Of a DNA stretch of 64,000 nucleotides, positions 10,981-60,700 are shown piece by piece (the first letter of the stretch is position 1; every line of letters starts with the position of its first letter). This stretch comes from Hypomesus transpacificus. Its lineage: Eukaryota; Chordata; Actinopteri; Osmeriformes; Osmeridae. A program made the position numbers and the translations under genes. The stretch covers positions 9,971,211-10,035,210 of the forward strand of contig NC_061073.1 in the NCBI RefSeq assembly GCF_021917145.1. The letters are read 5' to 3'. The notes below the pieces were generated by a model, which worked only from the letters and a program-made list of their open reading frames with translations, had not been told where the DNA came from and ran no database searches.

Positions 10981-12345
10981 GTCTGTTCCTTTGGTGTTGA
11001 GGACAACCAACTGGCCAAGAGGTCTGAGTGAGTCCTATAATGCATCACTGCAACTAACAACATTTAGTATCGATACAAAACATGACTTGAGCAGAAAGCA
11101 GAAAGTCTTGGTCTAGTTCTTTTCATCATCTTGCTCTCTACTGTTCCACATCTACAATGTGCTCCTTCTTTACTTTCACTCAGATCTTTATGTTCCGTTT
11201 TAGGAAGAAAATGTTGTCAAGCCGGAAGCATCATCTGAAGGTGAGGAGTTGTGCTTCCATTTTAAAGGTTGCTGGTGTTAGTGGGCGGTGTAATCCCAAT
11301 CCTGACCTGTTTCTGTGTGTTGCCTAGAGCATGATGGCCCTGATCGCTAAAAGCCTGTAGAGGCAGAGGCTGTGGAGGCAAAGGAAGATAGAGTCAGGTA
11401 CATGGTGGAGGCAGAGGAAGATAGAGTCAGCTACATGGTTGAGGCAGAGGAAGATAGAGTCAGCTACATGGTGGAGGCAGAGGAAGATAGAGTCAGCTAC
11501 ATGGTGGAGGCAGAGGAAGATAGTCAGGTACATGGTGGAGGCAGAGGAAGATAGAGTCAGCTACATGGTGGAGGCAGAGGAAGATAGAGTCAGCTACATG
11601 GTGGAGGCAGAGGAAGATAGAGTCAGCTACATGGTGGAGGCAGAGGAAGATAGTCAGGTACATGGTGGAGGCAGAGGAAGATAGAGTCAGGTACATGGAG
11701 GCAAACTGCCCCCCCCCTGGACCTGCACAGCTCATCTCAGGTGACAAATCAGGAAAAACAGGTTGAGATCTTTGATTATCACCTTGAAACGTCCTCAAAG
11801 GTTCTTCTCCTGCTGACCAACTGCAGGAACTGTGCAAAAAGATCCACCAGAGAGTGGATAAGATTGACGAGGAGAGATACGACTTGCCAAGTAAAGTTGG
11901 ATAGTGTGAGAAAGAGGTGCGTCCATGCCCAGGATCCTGTTCAGAGTGTCTGCACAGGAAGCTCCGGCTGGCTGGCCGGCGGCAAGTCACACCCCGTCAG
12001 AAAGATGACTTGAAGATAAAAGTGCAAGAAGCCTGTTCTGAGGACAGTGAGGATGTCCACTGACTCCATGCTTCAGGCTCTGCTGGGCTCCAAGCACAAG
12101 GTGACCATGGACCTGAGAGCCAACCTCAAACAGGTGAAGAAGGAGCTCAAGGAGGAGGCGAGAGGCCCAATTTCAAAACCTTGACCCTGAACTGACCTTT
12201 CCAGCATAACAGTGGCATGAACACTGGTCTCTCCTGAACTTGCGTTCTCTCCTGTCCTCCTAACCGGACAAAGATGCACTTGGTGACTGGCGTAAACACA
12301 TTGAGGACAAGGCTGACAGGAAGAAGATGTTTGAGACATCCTTAA
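10981..12345 (+). pseudogene. Troponin I copy C, decayed fast skeletal troponin I
   Basis: All six coding-exon equivalents are present: 10981-11027, 11204-11240, 11328 to about 11741, 11827-11916, 12001-12157 and 12267-12345. The lesions: the start codon position reads AGG (11020-11022) instead of ATG before TCTGA; exon 4 has an in-frame TAG at 11358-11360; exon 4 is inflated by a 33-bp minisatellite; exon 5 has an in-frame TAG at 11902-11904; exon 6 has lost 20 bases after 12025, removing the GKF part of the inhibitory region and shifting frame; the exon 6 donor is GC (12158); the exon 7 acceptor AG is CG (12265-12266); and an extra T breaks the normal stop after ETS. What is left of exons 3, 6 and 7 is still clearly alignable, so inactivation is fairly recent on the scale of the array. 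No functional product is expected. Confidence 0.9.
11362..11700. repeat. Exonic minisatellite, about 33-bp unit, in pseudogene C exon 4
   Basis: About 10 copies of GAGGCAGAGGAAGATAGAGT followed by CAGCTACATGGTG, some with a shorter spacer (GATAGTCAGGTACATG). The seed is the troponin I exon 4 stretch that normally encodes the EAEAKE...RYM segment (compare GAGGCGAAAGAGCAGG and AGGTACATGGAGGAG in copy A). The repeat thus arose by tandem duplication of coding sequence. Confidence 0.92.
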
Positions 12346-13329
12346 ACCAGCTGCACAGCTCACAGTGTCTTAAGAACTCACCAACCCTGCTTTGACTTTG
12401 TCTTGGATGTATAATTGTGTTATGTTCACTTTCGCAAAAACTTTGATCCAAAGCAACATGCAGGATGGATTTGAACCTCTTGATCTGTAATCACCCCTCC
12501 CCTGAGTGTGATGGTAGAAGTTAGATGGGGATGATTCATGTGAGCATGCGGCTAAACTTCACACTGGCCTTTCTCATCACTCTGTGTTTCTGATAACAGA
12601 TGCACTTCCTCACTGTAAAGACGCATGTGAATAAGAATACATTATTCAAGATGCGGTTGTTTTCTAATAGTTCTTTTACTTCCATGGTTTTTTGACACAG
12701 CTCCATTTTAACTCGATCCTGATGTCACAGAACTGGATCAGTGTTTGCGTTGTACGCTTGTGCTCGTTGTCAAGGCTTGGGTAACAAGGCACAGACAAAC
12801 TTTAATGCCAACTAATTAAATACACAGCAGGTTATTCTTGAAAGACTGTCATCCTTTAGATATTTCATCCTATGATCTTAATGATGAATCCATGCTACAT
12901 TAGTTTGTCTGAGCTGTGGTCCACTTTCTCTAATCTGTGTCCTGTTCTTCTGCATCTCGCTCATTGGTGTCAGTACAAAACATTGAAATCTTCACAAATC
13001 TAGGAAATGATTATTAATTTCATGTGATATAAATTTACATTTGATTAATTGTAAGTGAAGTTTTCATATCACTTTTGTCTGATTCTTTACAGACTTACAG
13101 ACAACTACCACAGTCTTGTCCTGTGTCAATGATAGAGTGCAGCGGAGGAGCAGTAAGGATGTGTCGCCCTCTACAGGTGAGTGATATAACCCTCTGGCAG
13201 TGTCCCACTCACACGTTCAGAGGTGTATCCTCCCTGACTAACGTTTACTCTGTGGCCATATCTGTTACTGTCTGGTCACTTTGCTTGATGTATGACGATG
13301 TTTAGCTTGTGTTCTGCACCTCTCTGTCA
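12346..13329. other. Spacer downstream of pseudogene C
   Basis: No exon, array or promoter module recognised. AT-rich, unique-looking sequence. Confidence 0.4.
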
Positions 13330-15984: not shown

Positions 15985-16222
15985 TCATTGGAGGAGACAT
16001 TTTATGAGGCCAGGGAGAAACCGCCTATGGTATTTAAGGAGCTCGTGGGCCTATTGGTCTAAGATGTGTTCACACCCATAAACAGTACCTTGTTTTTCTG
16101 CTGAGCCAACACTTACCCACATAAAAACCCTGTAGATTTTTTCCACAGTCTGTGACTTGCCAGTGCTTCCCTTTCATCCACCAAGTGCCTCCTCACCTCC
16201 TCCTCTCCTTCTTCTCTCATAG
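15985..16222 (+). promoter_or_regulatory. Promoter and non-coding exon 1 of troponin I copy D
   Basis: In order: CATTTTATGAGG, GGTATTTAAGGAG (A/T-rich, MEF2-like), inverted CCAAT in GGCCTATTGGTCT (about 16050), CCATAAACAG (about 16077), and a TATA-like CATAAAAACC at about 16120. A pyrimidine-rich exon 1 follows and ends TCTCATAG at 16222, before donor gtgaga. The block GGCCTATTGGTCT and the exon 1 end CTTCT-CTCATAG|gtgaga recur in front of copy E. Transcription start (about 16150) is inferred from TATA spacing. Confidence 0.68.
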
Positions 16223-17311
16223 GTGAGAATCTGTGTGTTCCACTTGTTTTGTCTGCACTGGCTAAAAGGGAACTCTCTTTATTGGGTGATTGCACACATA
16301 AAACCGATGCCATTTCACCTGTACACCCTTAAAATACAGATTATCGTGTGTCATTCAGTTACAGTTTGTGAACATGTTGGTGGTAATTTTGTCAGGCCTT
16401 TGATCCTCAAAGCCAGTAGATGCTGACAGCTTCTCAGACAGCTGTAGAGTTATCTGATCCCAGACTGGCTTTGCTGGCTTGGGTTAGGAATTGTCACTCC
16501 TCTGGTACAGTACAGCAGCTCCTCTGGCTAACACAATAATATGCTGATAAAAGGGATAAATAACCATTGGACTCATTCAGATGAAACTAGCCTGCAGAAC
16601 ATGATGATCTAGAAAAGGACACAGATCGTCTGAGCTAGTCGTGACAGAGGCTCCAGTAGATGTGTTCCTGTTCGTAGGGTTCTACCTTCATCTCTGCCAC
16701 AGTAGTTTGCATGTCCTGTTTCCAGATGAAAGATGCTTTTGTTTATGAGTCACAATCATTATTAACAGGTGTGATTAGACACGTATGCTTATATATGGTT
16801 TTCTTCTTGTGATGGTTCTGAAAATAGTGACGCTTTAAATGAGTACTAGTAATTTATCTATATTCATCAATTGATTGATTAATTTATGAATCTGTTTATG
16901 AGTTATTAAAGTTCAGTGTCTGTAACTTTGGAAATTGTACAAAGCAACTGTAAAAAATGTCAGTGTTGACATTTGACCTTAACTAACTCAAATTAGCTCA
17001 ATAACAACTGATCCGCCTGGTCTCAGCTAACCACGCAGCGGCTCCTGTTTCCAGTACAGACAAAAACTGGAACAAGACATTTCTAAATTTAGAAAAGTAC
17101 TTTCTGACAAACCTGCGATGAACAGCGTCTGGTCCTAACAGTGTCTGGTCCTGTGCAGATCAGTGTTTAACAAAGATCAGTAAAACACTTACATGTTTCG
17201 TAAAGGGACAACTCTTGTTTACAATTAAACTGAATCAAGATTTTAATTAAAATTAAATTCTTAATTCTGAAGATATAGAATGTTCACCAAATGTTTCTTG
17301 ATGATGTGCTG

Positions 17312-17630
17312 GAGTCACATTGTCCTGTATCTTTTAACAGGAGTCACATTGTCCTGTATCTTTTAACAGGAGTCACATTGTCCTGTATCTTTTAACAGGA
17401 GTCACATTGTCCTGTATCTTTTAACAGGAGTCACATTGTCCTGTATCTTTTAACAGGAGTCACATTGTCCTGTATCTTTTAACAGGAGTCACATTGTCCT
17501 GTATCTTTTAACAGGAGTCACATTGTCCTGTATCTTTTAACAGGAGTCACATTGTCCTGTATCTTTTAACAGGAGTCACATTGTCCTGTATCTTTTAACA
17601 GGAGTCACATTGTCCTGTATCTTTTAACAG
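17312..17630 (+). repeat. Tandem array of 11 splice-acceptor units (29 bp each) abutting exon 2 of troponin I copy D
   Basis: Exactly 11 copies, apparently without mismatch, of a 29-bp unit that starts GAGTCACATTG and ends TGTATCTTTTAACAG. The last copy ends at 17630 and is itself the 3' splice site of exon 2 (17631). Every unit therefore carries the polypyrimidine-AG of the real acceptor, and an A in GTCAC 23 bases before the AG is a possible branch site. The unit has no ATG, so use of an upstream copy would only lengthen the 5' UTR in 29-base steps. Confidence 0.97.
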
Positions 17631-17655
17631 GGGTTGAAAAACAAAAACTGCCAAC

Positions 17656-19765
17656 ATGTCTGAGTAAGTATGCCTTCTTTTGTTTGTAAAGAAATCAAAA
17701 AATACACAGTGAAATATGTGGTGAAACATATATATATATATATATGTATGAAGTAAACATTAAATTACACTTATTGACATGGATTATCTGCTTAATCATG
17801 TGATGTTAGAGTAATTAAACTTTAACTATCATCACAGGAAAAAGATGACATCGAGCCGTAAGCACCATTTGAAGGTAAACATCTTGTCACAGCGTCACAC
17901 GTGTTAGGAAGTCATTGTTTGTGATCATTATGAATTGAATAGAAACAAAACAAAAATTGGCAGTCATCATTCAGGGTTGTTTGCAACATTTTCTATTCCA
18001 GTATTGAGATGGGAAGGTTAAATATAATCTACTCAAATGGAGTCTACGGAGAGAACACATTAACTAGAAGCTCCAGAATAATAGGAAACTTCTGTGTTTT
18101 TGCATTTTAAGTTATTATAGAATCGATCTATATTTTCACTACAGAACCATGACTTGTTCATTGTAAACTTACGAGGTTCGAGTATTGTCTCTTGAACAAG
18201 CCGAAACCATCACTCTTTGCTCCTCAGCCAGACTTGCAGAGTCCTACCTCCACTAAACCCATACTTAGTACTCGACTGAATATGATTTGAATTGGATTCG
18301 ACTCTAATCATTAGAGTGTGTGGTTTAACAATGTGTCCATGCCTGTCCTGTGCAGAGCTTGGTGCTTGCGGTGGCTGCTGGCCTGCTGGAGGCGGAGGTG
18401 AAGGAGATTGCAGCAGAGAAGGAGCGCTTCATGGCCGAGGCCTGCCCCCCCTTGGACCTGCCATCAGGAGGACAGCAGGAGCTGATGGTACGACGAGCCC
18501 CTTCAACCGACCTTCATCACGTCCAACCTTACACCACAATCCATGTGTGGTACCACATGAAACCATAATGAAGCCTGGCACACCAGTGATGTGCTGTTAC
18601 TCCAAATGCATACAAAAAAAGTGTTGCTAGAAGATTTTTAGGCTGATGTCATTTTGGCAAGACGTCCAGTAATGAGTACTACAATGATGTGTTTTTGTCC
18701 CAATAGGAGTACTGCAATGATGTGTCTTTGTCCCAATAGGAGTACTGCAATGATGTGTCTTTGTCCCAATAGGAGTACTGCAATGATGTGTCTTTGTCCC
18801 AATAGGAGTACTGCAATGATGTGTCTTTGTCCCAATAGGAGTACTGCAATGATGTGTCTTTGTCCCAATAGGAGTACTGCAATGATGTGTCTTTGTCCCA
18901 ATAGGAGTACTGCAATGATGTGTCTTTGTCCTAATAGGAGCACTGCAATGATGTGTCTTTGTCCCAATAGGAGTACTGCAATGATGTGTCTTTGTACCAA
19001 TAGGAGCACTGCAATGATGTGTCTTTGTACCAATAGGAGTACTGTAATGATGCGTCTTTGTCGTAATAGGAGTACTGCAATGATGTGTCTTTGTACCAAT
19101 AGGAGTATTGCAATGATGTATCTTTGTACCAATAGGAGTACTGCAATGATGTGTCTTTGTACCAATAGGAGTACTGCAATGATGTGTCTTTGTCCCAATA
19201 GGAGTACTGCAAAAAACTGGGTCAGTTGAGTGATAAGAGTGATGAAGAGAGGTATGATGCAGAGGCCAAAGTAACAAAGGCACAGAAAGAGGTACAGTCC
19301 ATACGCACGTGTCTATATATATATATATATATAAAACCAACTGTGCTCCTGAGGTCACGCTTTGAAGTTGACCCATTTCTCTGTTCACAGATTGAGGATC
19401 TGAAGTTTAAAGTAACAGAACTGCAGCCAGTGAAGAAACCAGCTCTGAAGAAGGTCCGTATGTCTGCTGACTCCATGCTCCAGGCTCTGCTGGGCTCTAA
19501 GCACAAGGTGACCATGGATCTGAGGTCCAACCTCAAACAAGTGAAGAAGGAGGTCAAGGAGGACGTAAGTGTCTGCGACGACATAAAACGGAAAAGGTTT
19601 CCAATCTGTAATGAATGTAGCTCTCTCTGAATAGTTCATTATCCTTCGTTGGTGTCATGTCCTAAACTGAAACCCTGTCTTGATGTACAGACCACAGAAG
19701 CTGGCGACTGGCGTAAGAACATTGAGGATAAGGCTGACAGGAAGAAGATGTTTGAGACATCCTAA
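17656..19765 (+). CDS. tnni2: Fast skeletal troponin I, copy D (6 coding exons, 171 aa)
   Basis: Coding exons: 17656-17663, 17838-17874, 18356-18487, 19202-19291, 19391-19564 and 19691-19765; exon 2 starts at 17631 and non-coding exon 1 ends at 16222. The protein begins MSEKKMTSSRKHHLK. Next come EYCKKLGQLS and DEERYDAEAKV in the troponin T-binding region, QPVKKPALKKVRMSADSM in the inhibitory region, [14 protein letters not shown] in the switch, and C-terminus [20 protein letters not shown]. Compared with copies A and B, exon 6 is one codon shorter and the GKF that opens the inhibitory peptide is replaced by QPV, as in copy E. Both intron 1 and intron 4 acceptors sit at the end of tandem arrays of acceptor copies. 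Exon 5, intron 5 and exon 6 are nearly identical to copy E. Reading frame intact; splicing efficiency unknown. Confidence 0.9.
18674..19201 (+). repeat. Tandem array of 16 splice-acceptor/exon-start units (33 bp each) abutting exon 5 of troponin I copy D
   Basis: Exactly 16 units of 33 bp. Each begins GAGTACTGCAATGATGTG and ends TCTTTGTCCCAATAG (variants TACCAATAG, TCCTAATAG, TCGTAATAG). The final AG at 19200-19201 is the acceptor of exon 5, which starts GAGTACTGCAAAAAA. Each unit thus joins the first 10-11 bases of exon 5 to its own pyrimidine tract and AG. Copy E has a single such acceptor (GTACCAATAG|GAGTACTGC). In the coding frame a unit reads EYCNDVSLSQ then TAG, so splicing to any upstream copy would truncate the protein. 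Confidence 0.97.
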
Positions 19766-22864: not shown

Positions 22865-23884
22865 ATGTCGGAGTAAGTACACATCACTCTCAACAAAACA
22901 AATCCTAAATGAATGTTTCCAATGAATACAGAGGTGCTCCACTTCTGGTAAAGTGTACAAGTCTAAAATATGCGTTTGTTTGGTTACAGCAAAAAGATGT
23001 CATCCAGCCGTAAGCACCATCTGAAGGTAACTAGAATTCAAACCCAACTTGGCAACTTCAGGTACAGTAGGGTGTGGATTGTGTGTGGGATGCCTTACAG
23101 AGCTGCTTGTGTTGCAGAGCTTGGTGCTGTCGGTGGCTGCAGGGCTTCTGGAGGAAGAGGCTAAGCAGCTGGTGGTGGACAGAGCTAACTTCATGGCTGA
23201 AGCAGTTCCTCCTCTGGCAATCCCCTCAGGCCAAGCAGAGATCATGGTGGATACTTCCTGAACAGTAGAATGATAATACACACATACTGTGTGTGTGTGT
23301 GTATGGGGGGGGGGCTCTATATTGTCATTGTTATCCTAATTAACTCACACATTTGTGTACCAATAGGAGTACTGCAAAAAACTGGGTCAGTTGAGTGAGA
23401 AGAGTGATGAGGAGAGGTATGATGCAGAGGCCAAAGTAACAAAGGCACAGAAAGAGGTACAGTCCATACACACGTGTCTATATATATATATATAAAACCA
23501 ACTGTGCTCCTGAGGTCACGCTTTGAAGTTGACCCATTTCTCTGTTCACAGATTGAGGATCTGAAGTTCAAAGTGATGGAACTGCAGCCAGTGAAGAAAC
23601 CAGCTCTGAAGAAGGTCCGTTTGTCCGCTGACGCCATGCTCCAGGCTCTGCTGGGCTCCAAGCACAAGGTGACCATGGATCTGAGGTCCAACCTCAAACA
23701 AGTGAAGAAGGAGGTCAAGGCAGAGGTAAGTGTCTGTGTACAACTGAATCAGAAAACCACAGAATGGTTTTCCCTTGCATAATGTGACACGGTTCTTTTC
23801 TAACAGACCACAGAACAAGTTGGTGACTGGCGTAAGAACATTGACGACAAGGCTGACAGGAAGAAGATGTTTGAGACATCCTAA
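22865..23884 (+). CDS. tnni2: Fast skeletal troponin I, copy E (6 coding exons, 171 aa)
   Basis: Coding exons: 22865-22872, 22990-23026, 23118-23246, 23367-23456, 23552-23725 and 23807-23884; exon 2 starts at 22840. The protein begins [15 protein letters not shown]. It contains [20 protein letters not shown] in exon 4, EYCKKLGQLSEKSDEERYDA in exon 5, inhibitory QPVKKPALKKVRLSADAM, switch [14 protein letters not shown], and C-terminus [20 protein letters not shown]. The exon 4 donor is gtggat, weaker than in the sister copies. Intron 5 holds a short (TA)n run and is almost identical to intron 5 of copy D. No lesion is seen. This is the copy with the simplest structure and a close AATAAA, so it is the best candidate for a well-expressed member. 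Confidence 0.93.
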
Positions 23885-47500: not shown

Positions 47501-50500
47501 TTTTGCATCCATCCCAAACTTAAATACATTAGTGGTTTTATATCTTTTTATCTGTTTGTTGCGCTTGGTTGTTAGTAGTGGTTAGCCTCGCAAATTTAAT
47601 TTGTTGACAAACCAAACGACCACAACAAGTTCAGTACAGTCCAACTGCTCAAAAAAGGAAACCAAAGATTTAGGTACCATCAGCTCATCGTAAGCATCTC
47701 CACATCAAGCTACGCTAGGTGTACCTGAACGCTAACTGTGTCGTATCTCCTGTGCCTGCCTCAGGTACGACGGCGAGCTGAAGACAAGCAGCTCTCTGGA
47801 GGAGGATGAGGGCTTCAGCGACTGGACCCAGCGCCTGGAGAGACGCCGGCAGCAGCGCATGGAGGAGCTGGGGCAGGAGCTGGGGCAGGGGCTGGGGCAG
47901 GGGCTGGGGCAGGGGCTGGGGCAAGAGCTGGGGCAGGGGCTGGGGCAGGGGCTGGGGCAGGAGGCGGCAAGCAGAGCAGCTGAAACGCCCGAAAACACCC
48001 TCTCCATCACGGACATGACCGCAATGCGTCTGCAAAGAAAACCCAAGGACAAAGAGGAGGTGAAGACAATGACATGGAAGGAGGGTGAGAAGAGGAGGAA
48101 GGGAAATGAGGAGGATAAAGAGGACAGGGTCCGAGGGGGAGTGAAGGAGAGACAGCAGGAGGAGGTGCGAGTGGAGCAGATGAGAGTCCTGAAGGAGAAC
48201 CAGAGACCGGAGGTTGAGGTAAGGGTCTTCCCTGAACAGCATTCAAAGATCGTTTGAAATTCCTACATCTCCAGTTAATCAAAATCATGGGATCGGAAGA
48301 AGTCTATTCTGGAAAACTACCCATCTCAAACCCAGCATGTGACTAATCTGTCTGTCTACCTCCAGGTGAAGGAGAGAAGACAAGAAGTGAAGGTGTCACA
48401 CACATCAAAAGTGTTTGTGAATCAGGAAGCCAAGCACAACACCAATGGCAATGCACCCAGAGAGGAAGTGACATCTCACCTGGTAAAAACCAAAAGGACT
48501 TCCAGGTGAGTTAGTAAAGAAATCACATCCCTCGTATCGATGTGTGTGTAGAGCGGACCTACAGCACATTCTGCAACAAAAATCAGTTATTTCTCCCTCA
48601 ATCAACCTCTATTTTCTCTCCAGTACCTCCATCCGCCACGCAGCCCCAGCAGCAGAGCTGGCGGAGGCTGAAGAAAGGGCGATGATTCTGGAGACAGAGC
48701 AGAGGCTGGAGAAGTTCAGACGCTGCCACCAGGAGAAGGAGAACCAGGAGCTGGAGCTGCTCCGTCTGAGGCAGACAGAGGCAGAGCAGGAGCTGGAGGA
48801 GCTGAAGAGGAAGAGGGAGGAGAGGCGGGAGGCCAGGGAGGGAGAGGAGCGCAGGAGGGGGGCGGAGGAGCAGCAACGCCAGGCCAAGGAAGAGGTGAAG
48901 AAACACAGTCTGAAGACACACACAAATATAGTTTGGTTTCATATAATATATAATCACAAAATATATTATTTATTTGTATAATTATGAATAGAATATGATT
49001 CCAAATCATGAGCAAGGGAAGCACATCTGCACAAGCAGCCCTGGAGACCAGGGTAGCCCTGTCTGAACTGTGGGGGTGCTGTGTCTCAGGCGGAGCGGAG
49101 GAGGATGAAGGAGGACATTGAGCGGAGGAGGATGCAGGCGGCAGCAAAGATGAAGACGCTTAGTGCCTCTGTGGAGGATGGAGAAGAGATGTTCAGCCCT
49201 CTCAGCCCCACACACAAGGTAACACTTCCTCTGAGGTCTGTCACTGACCAGTTAAACCTAACATGGCTATAGTGTATTTCTCAAAACAATCATGCTTTAA
49301 ATATATTTAAACACAATAACTGTCATATACATGAACTGTATATGTATCAAATCAAATCAAATCAAATCAAATTTATTTGTATAGCCCTTTTTACACGCAA
49401 GCATGTCACAGAGGGCTTCACATGCGCCCATAGAACTGCCCCTCAACCAACCTAAACCCTCAAGGAAGACAAGGAAAAACTCCCAGAAAAACTCCCACCG
49501 GGAGAAAAAATGGAAGAAACCTTGGGAGGAGCAATTCAGAGAGGGATCCCCTCCTCCAGAGACGGTTGGTAAGAGAGAGGAGCAGAACACAAGCTAAACA
49601 TAGTCATACAGTGTCAATGGGTTTTGAAACACCAAAATCCATTGTTCGGCTTTATAGACGTTGGATGGGACCGGGAAACTCGCTGTTGGCCGTCATGGAG
49701 ACTGGATTCCGGGTGACGACCTGGTTCAGCGTTGGCAGACCGACGACCAAGCAGGTCCTGACAGCTCAAACCCCCCACACCACAGGGAATGTGTGGGGGG
49801 GGGGACAGAGAGGAGAGCAGGGATTAGAGAATGCCAGGAGCAGCTAACAGTTACAGTCAAAATAGAATGAGATCCCCACCGGTCAAGTGTGGACTAGTGC
49901 AGCAATTTAACAGAGCAAAAAGGGTATTTGATGCAGCCCCACACACCAAAACAACGACAGCCCCCCTCAGTTGGAACATGAAATTTGTTCCAGGGGAAAG
50001 AACTCTAAAGTAGGTTATACTTATACGAATAAGGATGAAAACAGCCAGTCCCCCGTTGTCTCCAACTAGTAATAAAAACTATAACAGTAACAATATACAG
50101 CAACGGAACTATAATAATAATAATACTAACAATATACAGTAACAGGTTTACTTTATTTGTAACATCTAGCTGGGCAATGTGAACATAAGCTATATATATA
50201 TATATATGTATGTATACAGTATACTGAATATATGAACAGCAAGCAAAGTTATGAACTGTAACTTTAATTTTTGCAGCCACCGTGAGTTGAGTTTTGAGCC
50301 AGTAAGTTGCATGTGTGTGTGTTCATCATGTGTGTGACATGTGTGATCCAAATGTCAGCATTCGCACTGTTTCCACTTTCCTGTTCTCTGCTGCATGTAG
50401 TGTTTCACACATGGATTTGGACTGGTGTGTGTGTGTGTGTGTTCAATGTGTCAACAGAGACAAACGCTGCTCTGAGTTTGGACATTGAATAACCCTCCCT

Positions 50501-57779: not shown

Positions 57780-60700
57780 TTAAGGAGCAGCGAACCCTCT
57801 TGCTGTTCTGTTAAAGTCTTTTGGTTCCTCTTCTTTGTTTTTGCGACCTATCAAAGCCATCTCAAACACGGTTGAAATTTTCGTCAGTGGCCTGGATGCT
57901 GCCTCCCTCAGCCGCTTGGCGTCAAACCTCGGGCTGAACAGGAGCACGGGAAGACGATGGGCAAATGCTGGGACTTCTTTAGCTACATCCTTTAAATCCT
58001 CTTTCTCATCCCCACTTTTGCTAGCTTCGATCTGCTGCATGATGTTCTCTTTGGTGGAGAACATTTGGAACAGGACAGCATCCCACATCTGAATGGTTTT
58101 GGGCTTCGGTGGTTCGCTCTCGTCTCCATCGTTGCTCCCCGACTTCTCACTCGCCTTCACGGCCGTCTTATCCTCATCTTTAGTTTCACTTATCTTGGGT
58201 CCATCTTCCTTCTTGGCTTCACTTTGACACTCTGTCTCTGGAAACTTTGGCTCCTCCACCTCCACCACCATATGCTTCTTGAGGCGCGACCAACCACTGA
58301 GTTTCGATTTCATGCCCTTTGGTTTTTTAATAACTTTAAGAAGAGGTTCTGCTGCTGGCAAATCATTGCCGGTGTCTTTCGTCTCTGAGGCTGATGAAGG
58401 AGGTGTGGAGGGAACAAGGGTGGGAACAGGTTTGACCTTGTCCTGATTTGTGTCCATCTGTTTGATCGGCATCGGACTCTCAGTAACAGCCTTTGGAGTA
58501 GCTGAGTCTTTCTCAATGGGAGTTGAAGTGGTTGACACGGTTTCTACCATTTTTGTGCTGTCAATTTGTTTGATGGGTGCTTTGATCTTGGGTGGCTCTT
58601 TAGTGTCTACTGATTGTTGACTGATTTTTGTGACAGTACCATGTACTTTTTCTGCGGTTTGCTTTGCATCTTTGGCAAGAGGTGCTTTGTTGCTGTCAGA
58701 GTTGATGTTTGCAGGAGGAAGTATGGGTGGTTTGACGCCAGTGATAGGTGTCTTTGGCTTTGGGGCATCAGGTACTGGGCTTTGCTCTGTCTTCTTTGCT
58801 GGTGTTTTAATCCCTATTTTAGTTTCTGGAGCACTAACCTTTGGTGTCTCCTGTAAAACAGGTTGGACTCTTGGTGTCTCTGCAATCTGAGGTTCATGTG
58901 AAGAAACAGTTGTGGCATCTGAAGCTTGGGAAACAACTATAGTTGGAACCATTATAGCTGGAGTGGGTGTCACTTCCTGTTTCAAAATGGTTTTGTCCTC
59001 TTTGTGGGTTTCTTCAACCAGAGGTTGTGTTTTCCCGACTGTCTCCTGCTGAGCTGTGTTCGATTCTTCCGATGCATGTGCTGTGTTTTTAGATTCTTCC
59101 TGTGTTGGTGTCTTAGACCGAGACAACCCAAATGAGGGTGTGTAACTTTGGATTCCTCCATGTGCAACATATTCAGCAGGAGTCAATCCATAATATGTTG
59201 ACTTTGGTTGGTGGGCTACGTGGGTTGGTGTTTTGGGCCTTTGAAATGCTGAAGGTGAGACTTGCGGTGACGTTCCATAAATAAGAGTCTTTGGTCTCTG
59301 ATTTCTGAGTGACTGAATTGGAGGCCTGGCAGGCTCATAGGTGAGGGTTTTGGGCGTCTGAGTTGCAGGAGTGGGAGGTTTTGGCCCTTCATACAAGGGA
59401 GTTTTAGGCCTCTGATATCCATAGGTTGGTGTCACATGAGACTCATATGAAGGGGTCCTAGGTCTTTGATACCCATATGAGGTTGTTGTTGGTTTTGGTG
59501 AAACATTTGTCGGAGTCTTGGGTCTCTGATGGCCCAGTGGAGCTGTGGGGGTCTTGGGTCTCTGATGGCCCAGTGGAGCCGTGGGGGTCTTGGGTCTCTG
59601 ATGGCCAAGTGGAGCTGTGGGGGTCTTTGGTCTTGTGGACTTGACTACTTCTATAGTCTCTGGTCTGGGAGCATCTGGTTTAGAAACATTTTCATGTAAA
59701 CTAATCACTCCATTTGGTGTAGCTGCATTTTTAGCATTCACTAGCTCATTTGATTGTTCGGTCTCTGTTGCTGGAGATGTTGGAGAGACCGGGGAAGGTG
59801 ATTTTGATCTCTGTGTCTCTGTAGTAATTGGTGAGACAGCAAATAGAAGTGGATTGGGTCGTGATATTTCAAAAACAGGTGTTTTGGAACGAGTGACATG
59901 ATAGGATGGAGTCTTTGGACGGCCAGAAGACGTTCTTGATAATGAAGAATCATAAGTTGGAGTCTTAGGCCTTAAGATTTCTGATGTTGGAGTTAGACCT
60001 CTCTTCACATCCGATGTTGGTGTCAAACTTCGTTTTATTTCTGATGTAGGAGTTAAAGCTCTTTTGACTTCTGATGTAGGAGTTAAAGCTCTTTTTATTT
60101 CTGATGTAGGAGTTAAAGCTCTTTTTATTTCTGATGTAGGAGTTAAAGCTCTTTTTATTTCTGATGTAGGAGTTAAAGCTCTTTTGACTTCTGATGTAGG
60201 AGTTAAAGCTCTTTTTATTTCTGATGTAGGAGTTAAAGCTCTTTTGACTTCTGATGTAGGAGTTAAAGCTCTTTTGACTTCTGATGTAGGAGTCAAACCT
60301 CTCTTCACCTCCAATGTTGGTGTCACAGTTCTTTTGACTTGAGACGTAGGAGTTAGACCTCTCTTCACATCTAATGTTGGTGTAACACTTCTTTTGATTT
60401 CTGATGTGTTAGTTAAAACTCTTTTGACTTCTGATGTAGGTGTCAGACCTCTTCTTAATTCTGATGTAGGAGTTCTTCTTTGTGTTGTTGTGCCTCCAAT
60501 TGCAGATAATCCAGTAGAATCATGCAGAGGAGTTTTTATGACCTCATATGTATTTGCAGTATACATCTGAATCTGAGGAACCTCAAACATGGGTTTGGGT
60601 GATCTAGAAAGCGACGCTTTAAATGTCGGACGTGGACTCCTAGGCTTCATCAGCGGGCTTATCACAGTAGTAGGTCTTATGATCGTGTGTGAAACTGTCT

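Follow-up and report, generated by a model that had tools for sequence, protein, structure and literature searches.

Tandem repeats that span intron/exon borders, called mirages, have been described in amphioxus, where they occur in Adh3, in the globin genes BflGb6 and BflGb9 and in troponin C, and PGBD5 has been likened to them (PMC3087553, PMC3902484; here and below these papers are cited from excerpts). Their unit lengths are 10-72 and 150-160 bp (PMC3087553), and the Adh, TnC and globin mirages are said in the excerpts to leave regular splicing intact, with no aberrant mRNAs (PMC3902484, PMC3087553). Mirages are further characterised by array lengths that vary among haplotypes or cells and by homogenised units, from which those at the borders escape. 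In rainbow trout irak3, the head of exon 5 (15-17 nt of the exon) is found four times directly 5' of exon 5, and the excerpted text does not treat these repeats as competing acceptors (PMC6763605). Human segmental duplications contain minisatellites through which cryptic splice sites become active and novel introns form (PMC2812944), and the units of the human IFI6 (6-16) minisatellite supply several splice donor sites (PMC4526556).

Here we analyzed a window of 64 kb (C14:9971211-10035210 of the 437-Mb delta smelt assembly), in which sixteen copies of a 33-bp unit lie at the intron 4/exon 5 border of a troponin I gene, tnni2 copy D (gene D). The array has the structural features of a mirage minisatellite. 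As in the amphioxus genes, so far as the excerpts describe them, a border-spanning repeat copies splice signals and leaves the authentic site intact; the AG/GT signals reported in mirage units have their counterpart in an AG in 16 of 16 units, with acceptor-like scores, and the mirage range (PMC3087553) covers both these 33-bp units and the 29-bp units of a second array in the gene. Differences from the excerpted amphioxus cases are the vertebrate setting, the copy numbers of 16 and 11 in separate introns of a single gene and an in-frame stop in each 33-bp unit; furthermore, isoforms of a smelt ferritin gene fit decoy exons, whereas amphioxus mirages are described there as non-interfering. With irak3, as excerpted, gene D shares teleost exon-head copies that abut the exon. 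The human segmental-duplication minisatellites have units of about 30 bp and likewise alter gene structure and splicing, but according to the excerpt (PMC2812944) they sit in exons and form introns, while the tnni2-D repeats straddle an existing acceptor. Repeat units serve as splice sites in both the excerpted IFI6 account and tnni2-D, as donors in the former and as acceptors in the latter. The original paper on the IFI6 donors is reportedly that of Turri in 1995. Competing neighbouring acceptors are also familiar from NAGNAG sites with their three-base spacing; in gene D full acceptor units compete at a distance of 33 bases, and the NAGNAG class was rejected for this reason. Among the matches listed from the open-licence literature none dealt with acceptor arrays of smelt or of tnni2. 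The kind of structure is already known, though seldom described, and what is added here is the vertebrate setting, the copy number, a gene with two arrays, a stop per unit and the isoforms of ferritin.

RESULTS

Gene D, its sister gene and the 33-bp acceptor array

The spliced product of gene D agrees with the Hypomesus transpacificus record P0002, troponin I, fast skeletal muscle-like (100% identity, 171 aa), and matches Pfam Troponin (1.3e-42). All features given here lie on the plus strand. Exon 2, with the end of the 5'UTR and the ATG, is located at 17631..17663, 3' of the second array; exon 4 at 18356..18487, with its donor after 18487 in phase 0; and exon 5, of 90 nt and purine-rich from base +12 to base +90, at 19202..19291. 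The ORF is intact, as are the splice dinucleotides at the six listed exons. On the promoter side, gene D resembles the sister gene E by 68% over 16030-16241. Exon 5 of gene E (23367..23456) has the acceptor only once ahead of it, and TRF returned no repeat rows between 20965 and 25838. An earlier note on this DNA had described a single acceptor at the same place in gene E, which is borne out by TRF and by the sequence before the exon; the D/E comparison likewise supports its view that gene D, unlike gene E, multiplied its acceptor.

TRF called a repeat at 18674-19212 (period 33, 16.3 copies, 95% matches), which stops 11 bases inside exon 5. By TRF, unit reading and per-site comparison, the sixteen units were placed at 18674..19201, each comprising positions -22 to -1 of intron 4 (pyrimidine tract and TAG) and +1 to +11 of exon 5. 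The proposal that the unit joins the exon 5 head to the intron 4 acceptor tail was confirmed at exactly 11 + 22 bases, and so were the sixteen tandem acceptor copies, as an AG ends every unit; the count of 17 near-identical sites had to be corrected to 16 AGs, the authentic one included. The final unit (19169..19201) holds the authentic acceptor, with intron 4 ending at 19201, and P0002 fits that splice choice. The 15 decoy acceptors, identified by per-site comparison and a position weight matrix (PWM), occupy 18674..19168, with AG ends at 18706 and then every 33 bases to 19168. Compared with the authentic site over -22 to +11, seven of the 15 decoys are identical and the other eight carry 1-3 base differences. 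There are eight distinct unit types and ten variable positions in the unit, the AG never among them; the first unit departs from the last at two positions, in a way shared by no other unit, and the last unit matches the 5' block rather than its neighbour. An array of such regularity is not due to chance. In an exact search, a 24-base core had 11 matches across the assembly, all of them within the tnni2-D array. Candidate branch A's were seen by eye 22-23, and also 19, bases 5' of each AG.

The second acceptor array of gene D, 11 units of 29 bp with 100% matches, is located at 17311..17630 and ends at the acceptor of the ATG exon. Since no ATG occurs within it, decoy use could only lengthen the 5'UTR. 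Its units score 5.4 in the PWM compared to 5.13 for the authentic site, and as four of the 64 other AGs scored in intron 1 also reach 5.4 or more, this array is not alone as a competitor.

Local splice signals

For the PWM we used 33 acceptors of the window, without those of the two arrays, and it is too small to rank sites finely. It gave 5.11 for the authentic site at 19201 and 4.03-6.65 for the 15 decoys, three of which (18706, 18937 and 19069) outscore the authentic site; the best among nine other AGs scored from 18508 to 18705 reached -0.86. The local sequence cannot tell the right acceptor from the wrong ones, and the decoys are locally equal competitors. From the near-equal signals at all 16 sites it follows that discrimination must come from the context. 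We found a purine share of 74.7% for exon 5 from +12 to +90 versus 49.6% for the array, and an exon length of 90 nt from the authentic site versus 123-585 nt for decoy-started exons. RNA folding that hides the decoys was rejected, because the array folds less well than its shuffles (z +3.86) and stable folding is therefore unlikely to mask them.

The best donor-like site inside the 33-bp array scored 2.92, lower than any of 21 known donors (minimum 3.89). We therefore rejected recursive splicing or micro-exons in tnni2-D as well as a donor minisatellite of the IFI6 type. Intron gain by tandem duplication, which implies a duplicated AG|GT, does not apply either, as the sequence reading found no AGGT in the 33-bp units and no good donor-like site is present.

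Predicted consequence of decoy use

As exon 4 ends in phase 0, every decoy would lead into the reading E-Y/H-C-N-D and then to an early stop. The earlier claim of a TAG after ten codons at every decoy holds for 13 of the 15; the other two hit TAA after nine codons, just before the TAG. In all 15 cases the stop lies 90 to 552 nt ahead of the next exon junction, and under the usual 50-nt rule decoy-spliced tnni2-D transcripts are predicted substrates of nonsense-mediated decay (NMD). The in-frame stop is a by-product of a TAG acceptor, a phase 0 junction and a period divisible by three (11 codons).

The single database protein matching gene D at 100%, P0002, represents splicing at the last site, although this record may rest on homology and not on reads. 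A query with the truncated 69-aa product found no such database record; as NMD targets rarely enter databases as proteins, this is weak evidence. The sole match to that query, P0121, was discarded as unspliced exon 4 read into intron 4.

Relation of the array to gene E and to other minisatellites of the window

Over aligned positions, genes D and E are 58.8-73.4% identical in introns 2, 3, 4 and 6 and 70.9% identical in exon 4, while the values are 97.8% in exon 5, 98.9% in intron 5, 93.7% in exon 6 and 94.7% in exon 7; the earliest difference in exon 6 is at position 18. This peak at exon 5/intron 5 points to gene conversion between D and E over roughly 220 bp (19191-19410 in D and 23356-23570 in E), the left border of the tract falling at the acceptor array. 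As the unit joins gene D intron to a gene E-like acceptor and exon head, the array probably arose at or after this putative conversion.

We also asked how often minisatellites end at acceptors by chance. Minisatellites with a period of 9 or more and at least 2.9 copies were merged, and 2 of the resulting 32 terminate on their right side at one of 35 plus-strand acceptors in the window; the acceptors of the broken copy C, that of the minus-strand gene and the left ends of arrays were left out. Under random placement, two or more coincidences occurred in 732 of 20 000 runs, in a test that is post hoc and uses the 35 acceptors annotated in this analysis. The coincidence of array and acceptor is less extreme than the regularity of the array.

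A ferritin array and the flanking neighbourhood

Outside the window we used 189 kb of DNA, made up of 14 flanking stretches and six stretches at other troponin I loci, and scanned it together with the window for acceptor arrays; resting on a small model of codons and splice sites, the scan does not amount to a census. Of its rows we pursued those of the ferritin, the synaptotagmin-like and the troponin-T-like sequences, and the exons of L051 and L049 were compared with Pfam, while the two top rows, L050 and L041, were set aside by eye as low-complexity sequence.

About 19 kb beyond the window, on the minus strand, an acceptor array was found at L039:8798-9107 (C14:10053897-10054206) in a ferritin light chain, oocyte isoform-like gene (its joined exons match Pfam Ferritin at 1.2e-08). 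It holds eight acceptors, the last being authentic, with six of the seven spacings at 39 bases and one at 31; in the PWM five of the seven decoys equal the authentic site (6.54), one reaches 10.84 and one 1.47. The unit has 13 codons, is open and also contains GAGCAG|GTGTGT. Of three database isoforms, X3 (203 aa) agrees with splicing of exon 3 to the last acceptor, whereas isoform X2 (209 aa) carries the insert KQGSEQ and isoform X1 (222 aa) the insert KQGSEQVCPCVFQKQGSEQ. The array encodes each insert exactly, as an exon of 18 nt (X2) or 57 nt (X1) that starts at a decoy acceptor and stops at a donor within a unit. Database isoform variants usually rest on RNA reads. If the X1 and X2 gene models are read-based, the decoy acceptors of this array are used in delta smelt. 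The fit of X1 and X2 to decoy-started exons makes real decoy use plausible and suggests leakage in arrays of the ferritin type, which may be large, with two of three isoforms fitting decoys.

Several further repeats were recorded. Eight 50-bp units (L044:6191-6590) lie directly 5' of a synaptotagmin-like exon with a Pfam C2 domain, whose real acceptor may be within the array or 9 bases past it. Four 22-bp units (L038:8677-8765) begin exactly at the donor of an exon that is troponin-T-like by eye only and has no Pfam match. Beside gene D, at 11000-12350 of the window, there is a broken troponin I copy whose match contains one TGA and one TAA and whose exon 4 has turned into a minisatellite with some ten 33-bp units (11372-11698). 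Two coding minisatellites of the window keep the frame, one with a 30-base unit in a long minus-strand ORF (59979-60474) and one with a 12-base unit in an exon (47863-47961) of a gene that we take to be lsp1. At the other troponin I loci, the number of minisatellite rows at threshold was zero for L032, L033, L034 and L037, one for L035 and eight for L036. The stretches beside the window have 1-17 such rows per 10 kb, and the density seems regional. In the sister species H. nipponensis, tandem repeats make up 14.61% of the genome according to the excerpted report (PMC12083275), which agrees with the 32 merged minisatellites in our 64-kb window.

DISCUSSION

We consider the tnni2-D array most likely to be a mirage minisatellite that grew passively, with splicing mainly at the last site and a minor leak to the nearest decoys that would feed NMD, and we put the probability of this reading at roughly two in three. 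A short tandem duplication across the intron 4/exon 5 border would have been followed by minisatellite-like growth and homogenisation. A duplication that straddles the border keeps an intact acceptor beside the full exon, so that gene D stays functional. The last site alone adjoins the purine-rich body of the exon, at a distance of 90 nt from the next donor, and exon definition is therefore expected to favour it, although an upstream unit could win under first-AG or first-transcribed rules. A small share of the transcripts probably leaks to the nearest decoys and would, with a stop after 9-10 codons, enter NMD, which would slightly lower the output; the array would be tolerated rather than selected as a brake. 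The three clear arrays differ in what decoy use would produce (a longer 5'UTR, an early stop or an in-frame insert), which argues for ordinary minisatellites that straddle splice sites and not for NMD devices, and makes the stop in tnni2-D probably incidental.

This bears directly on the brake tunable by copy number that the earlier note had suggested. In its full form, each added decoy would send more transcripts to NMD, and array length would set the amount of troponin I and be under selection. In its favour, every decoy gives an early stop that qualifies under the 50-nt rule, at least 90 nt before the next junction in all 15 cases, the decoys score like the authentic site, and in the ferritin gene, whose array is analogous, the isoforms agree with the use of decoys. 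A brake tunable by copy number is not supported so far, since the stop is not shared by the second array of gene D, which can only extend the 5'UTR, or by the open ferritin unit, and the window is simply rich in minisatellites, with 32 merged arrays in 64 kb. The two arrays without such a stop set the brake back as the default reading, and we regard it as improbable. That the decoys are never recognised and the last site is used exclusively would agree with the excerpted accounts of the amphioxus Adh, TnC and globin mirages, which are said to yield no aberrant mRNAs (PMC3902484, PMC3087553), with P0002 and with the lack of a database record for the truncated product; against such complete silence stand the conspecific ferritin isoforms X1 and X2, whose inserts fit decoy exons, and the seven of 15 decoys that are locally identical to the authentic site, and on balance it seems unlikely.

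The occurrence of two arrays in one gene could also mean that gene D is being lost, its splicing already crippled and the protein supplied by its neighbours. A broken copy with exon-derived repeats does adjoin it at about 11.0-12.4 kb and gene E is intact, but the ORF of gene D and its splice dinucleotides at the six listed exons are preserved, and its promoter side retains the likeness to gene E; we give little credence to such a loss. The copy number is known from one assembly and might be wrong through a collapse or expansion error, yet the private variants are ordered among eight distinct units, unlike a stutter error, and the array, at 528 bp, fits within one long read, which makes an artefact very hard to credit.

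Intron 4 of tnni2-D is a natural competition test, in which sixteen acceptors, seven of the 15 decoys being identical to the authentic one over 33 bases, compete for one exon. The winning site would show to what extent local splice signals yield to exon context, position and transcription order. Mirages, an amphioxus structure in the published accounts as excerpted, are extended to a vertebrate gene with a clear read-out, namely a stop per decoy. The ferritin array suggests a minisatellite route to new exons, as proposed in the excerpted text for amphioxus globins (PMC3087553), and this route of exon birth resembles the novel introns reported from human minisatellites (PMC2812944). More tentatively, and with the odds in our view against it, the acceptor-straddling minisatellites of smelt could be an active source of splice variation, either through cassette micro-exons or through an NMD tax, with array length as a heritable dial on isoform choice and output. 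If this is true, the donor-like CAG|GT in the ferritin unit would turn decoys into cassette micro-exons that make the protein longer by 6 or 19 residues, and the stop in the tnni2-D unit would convert the same leakage into a length-dependent NMD tax.
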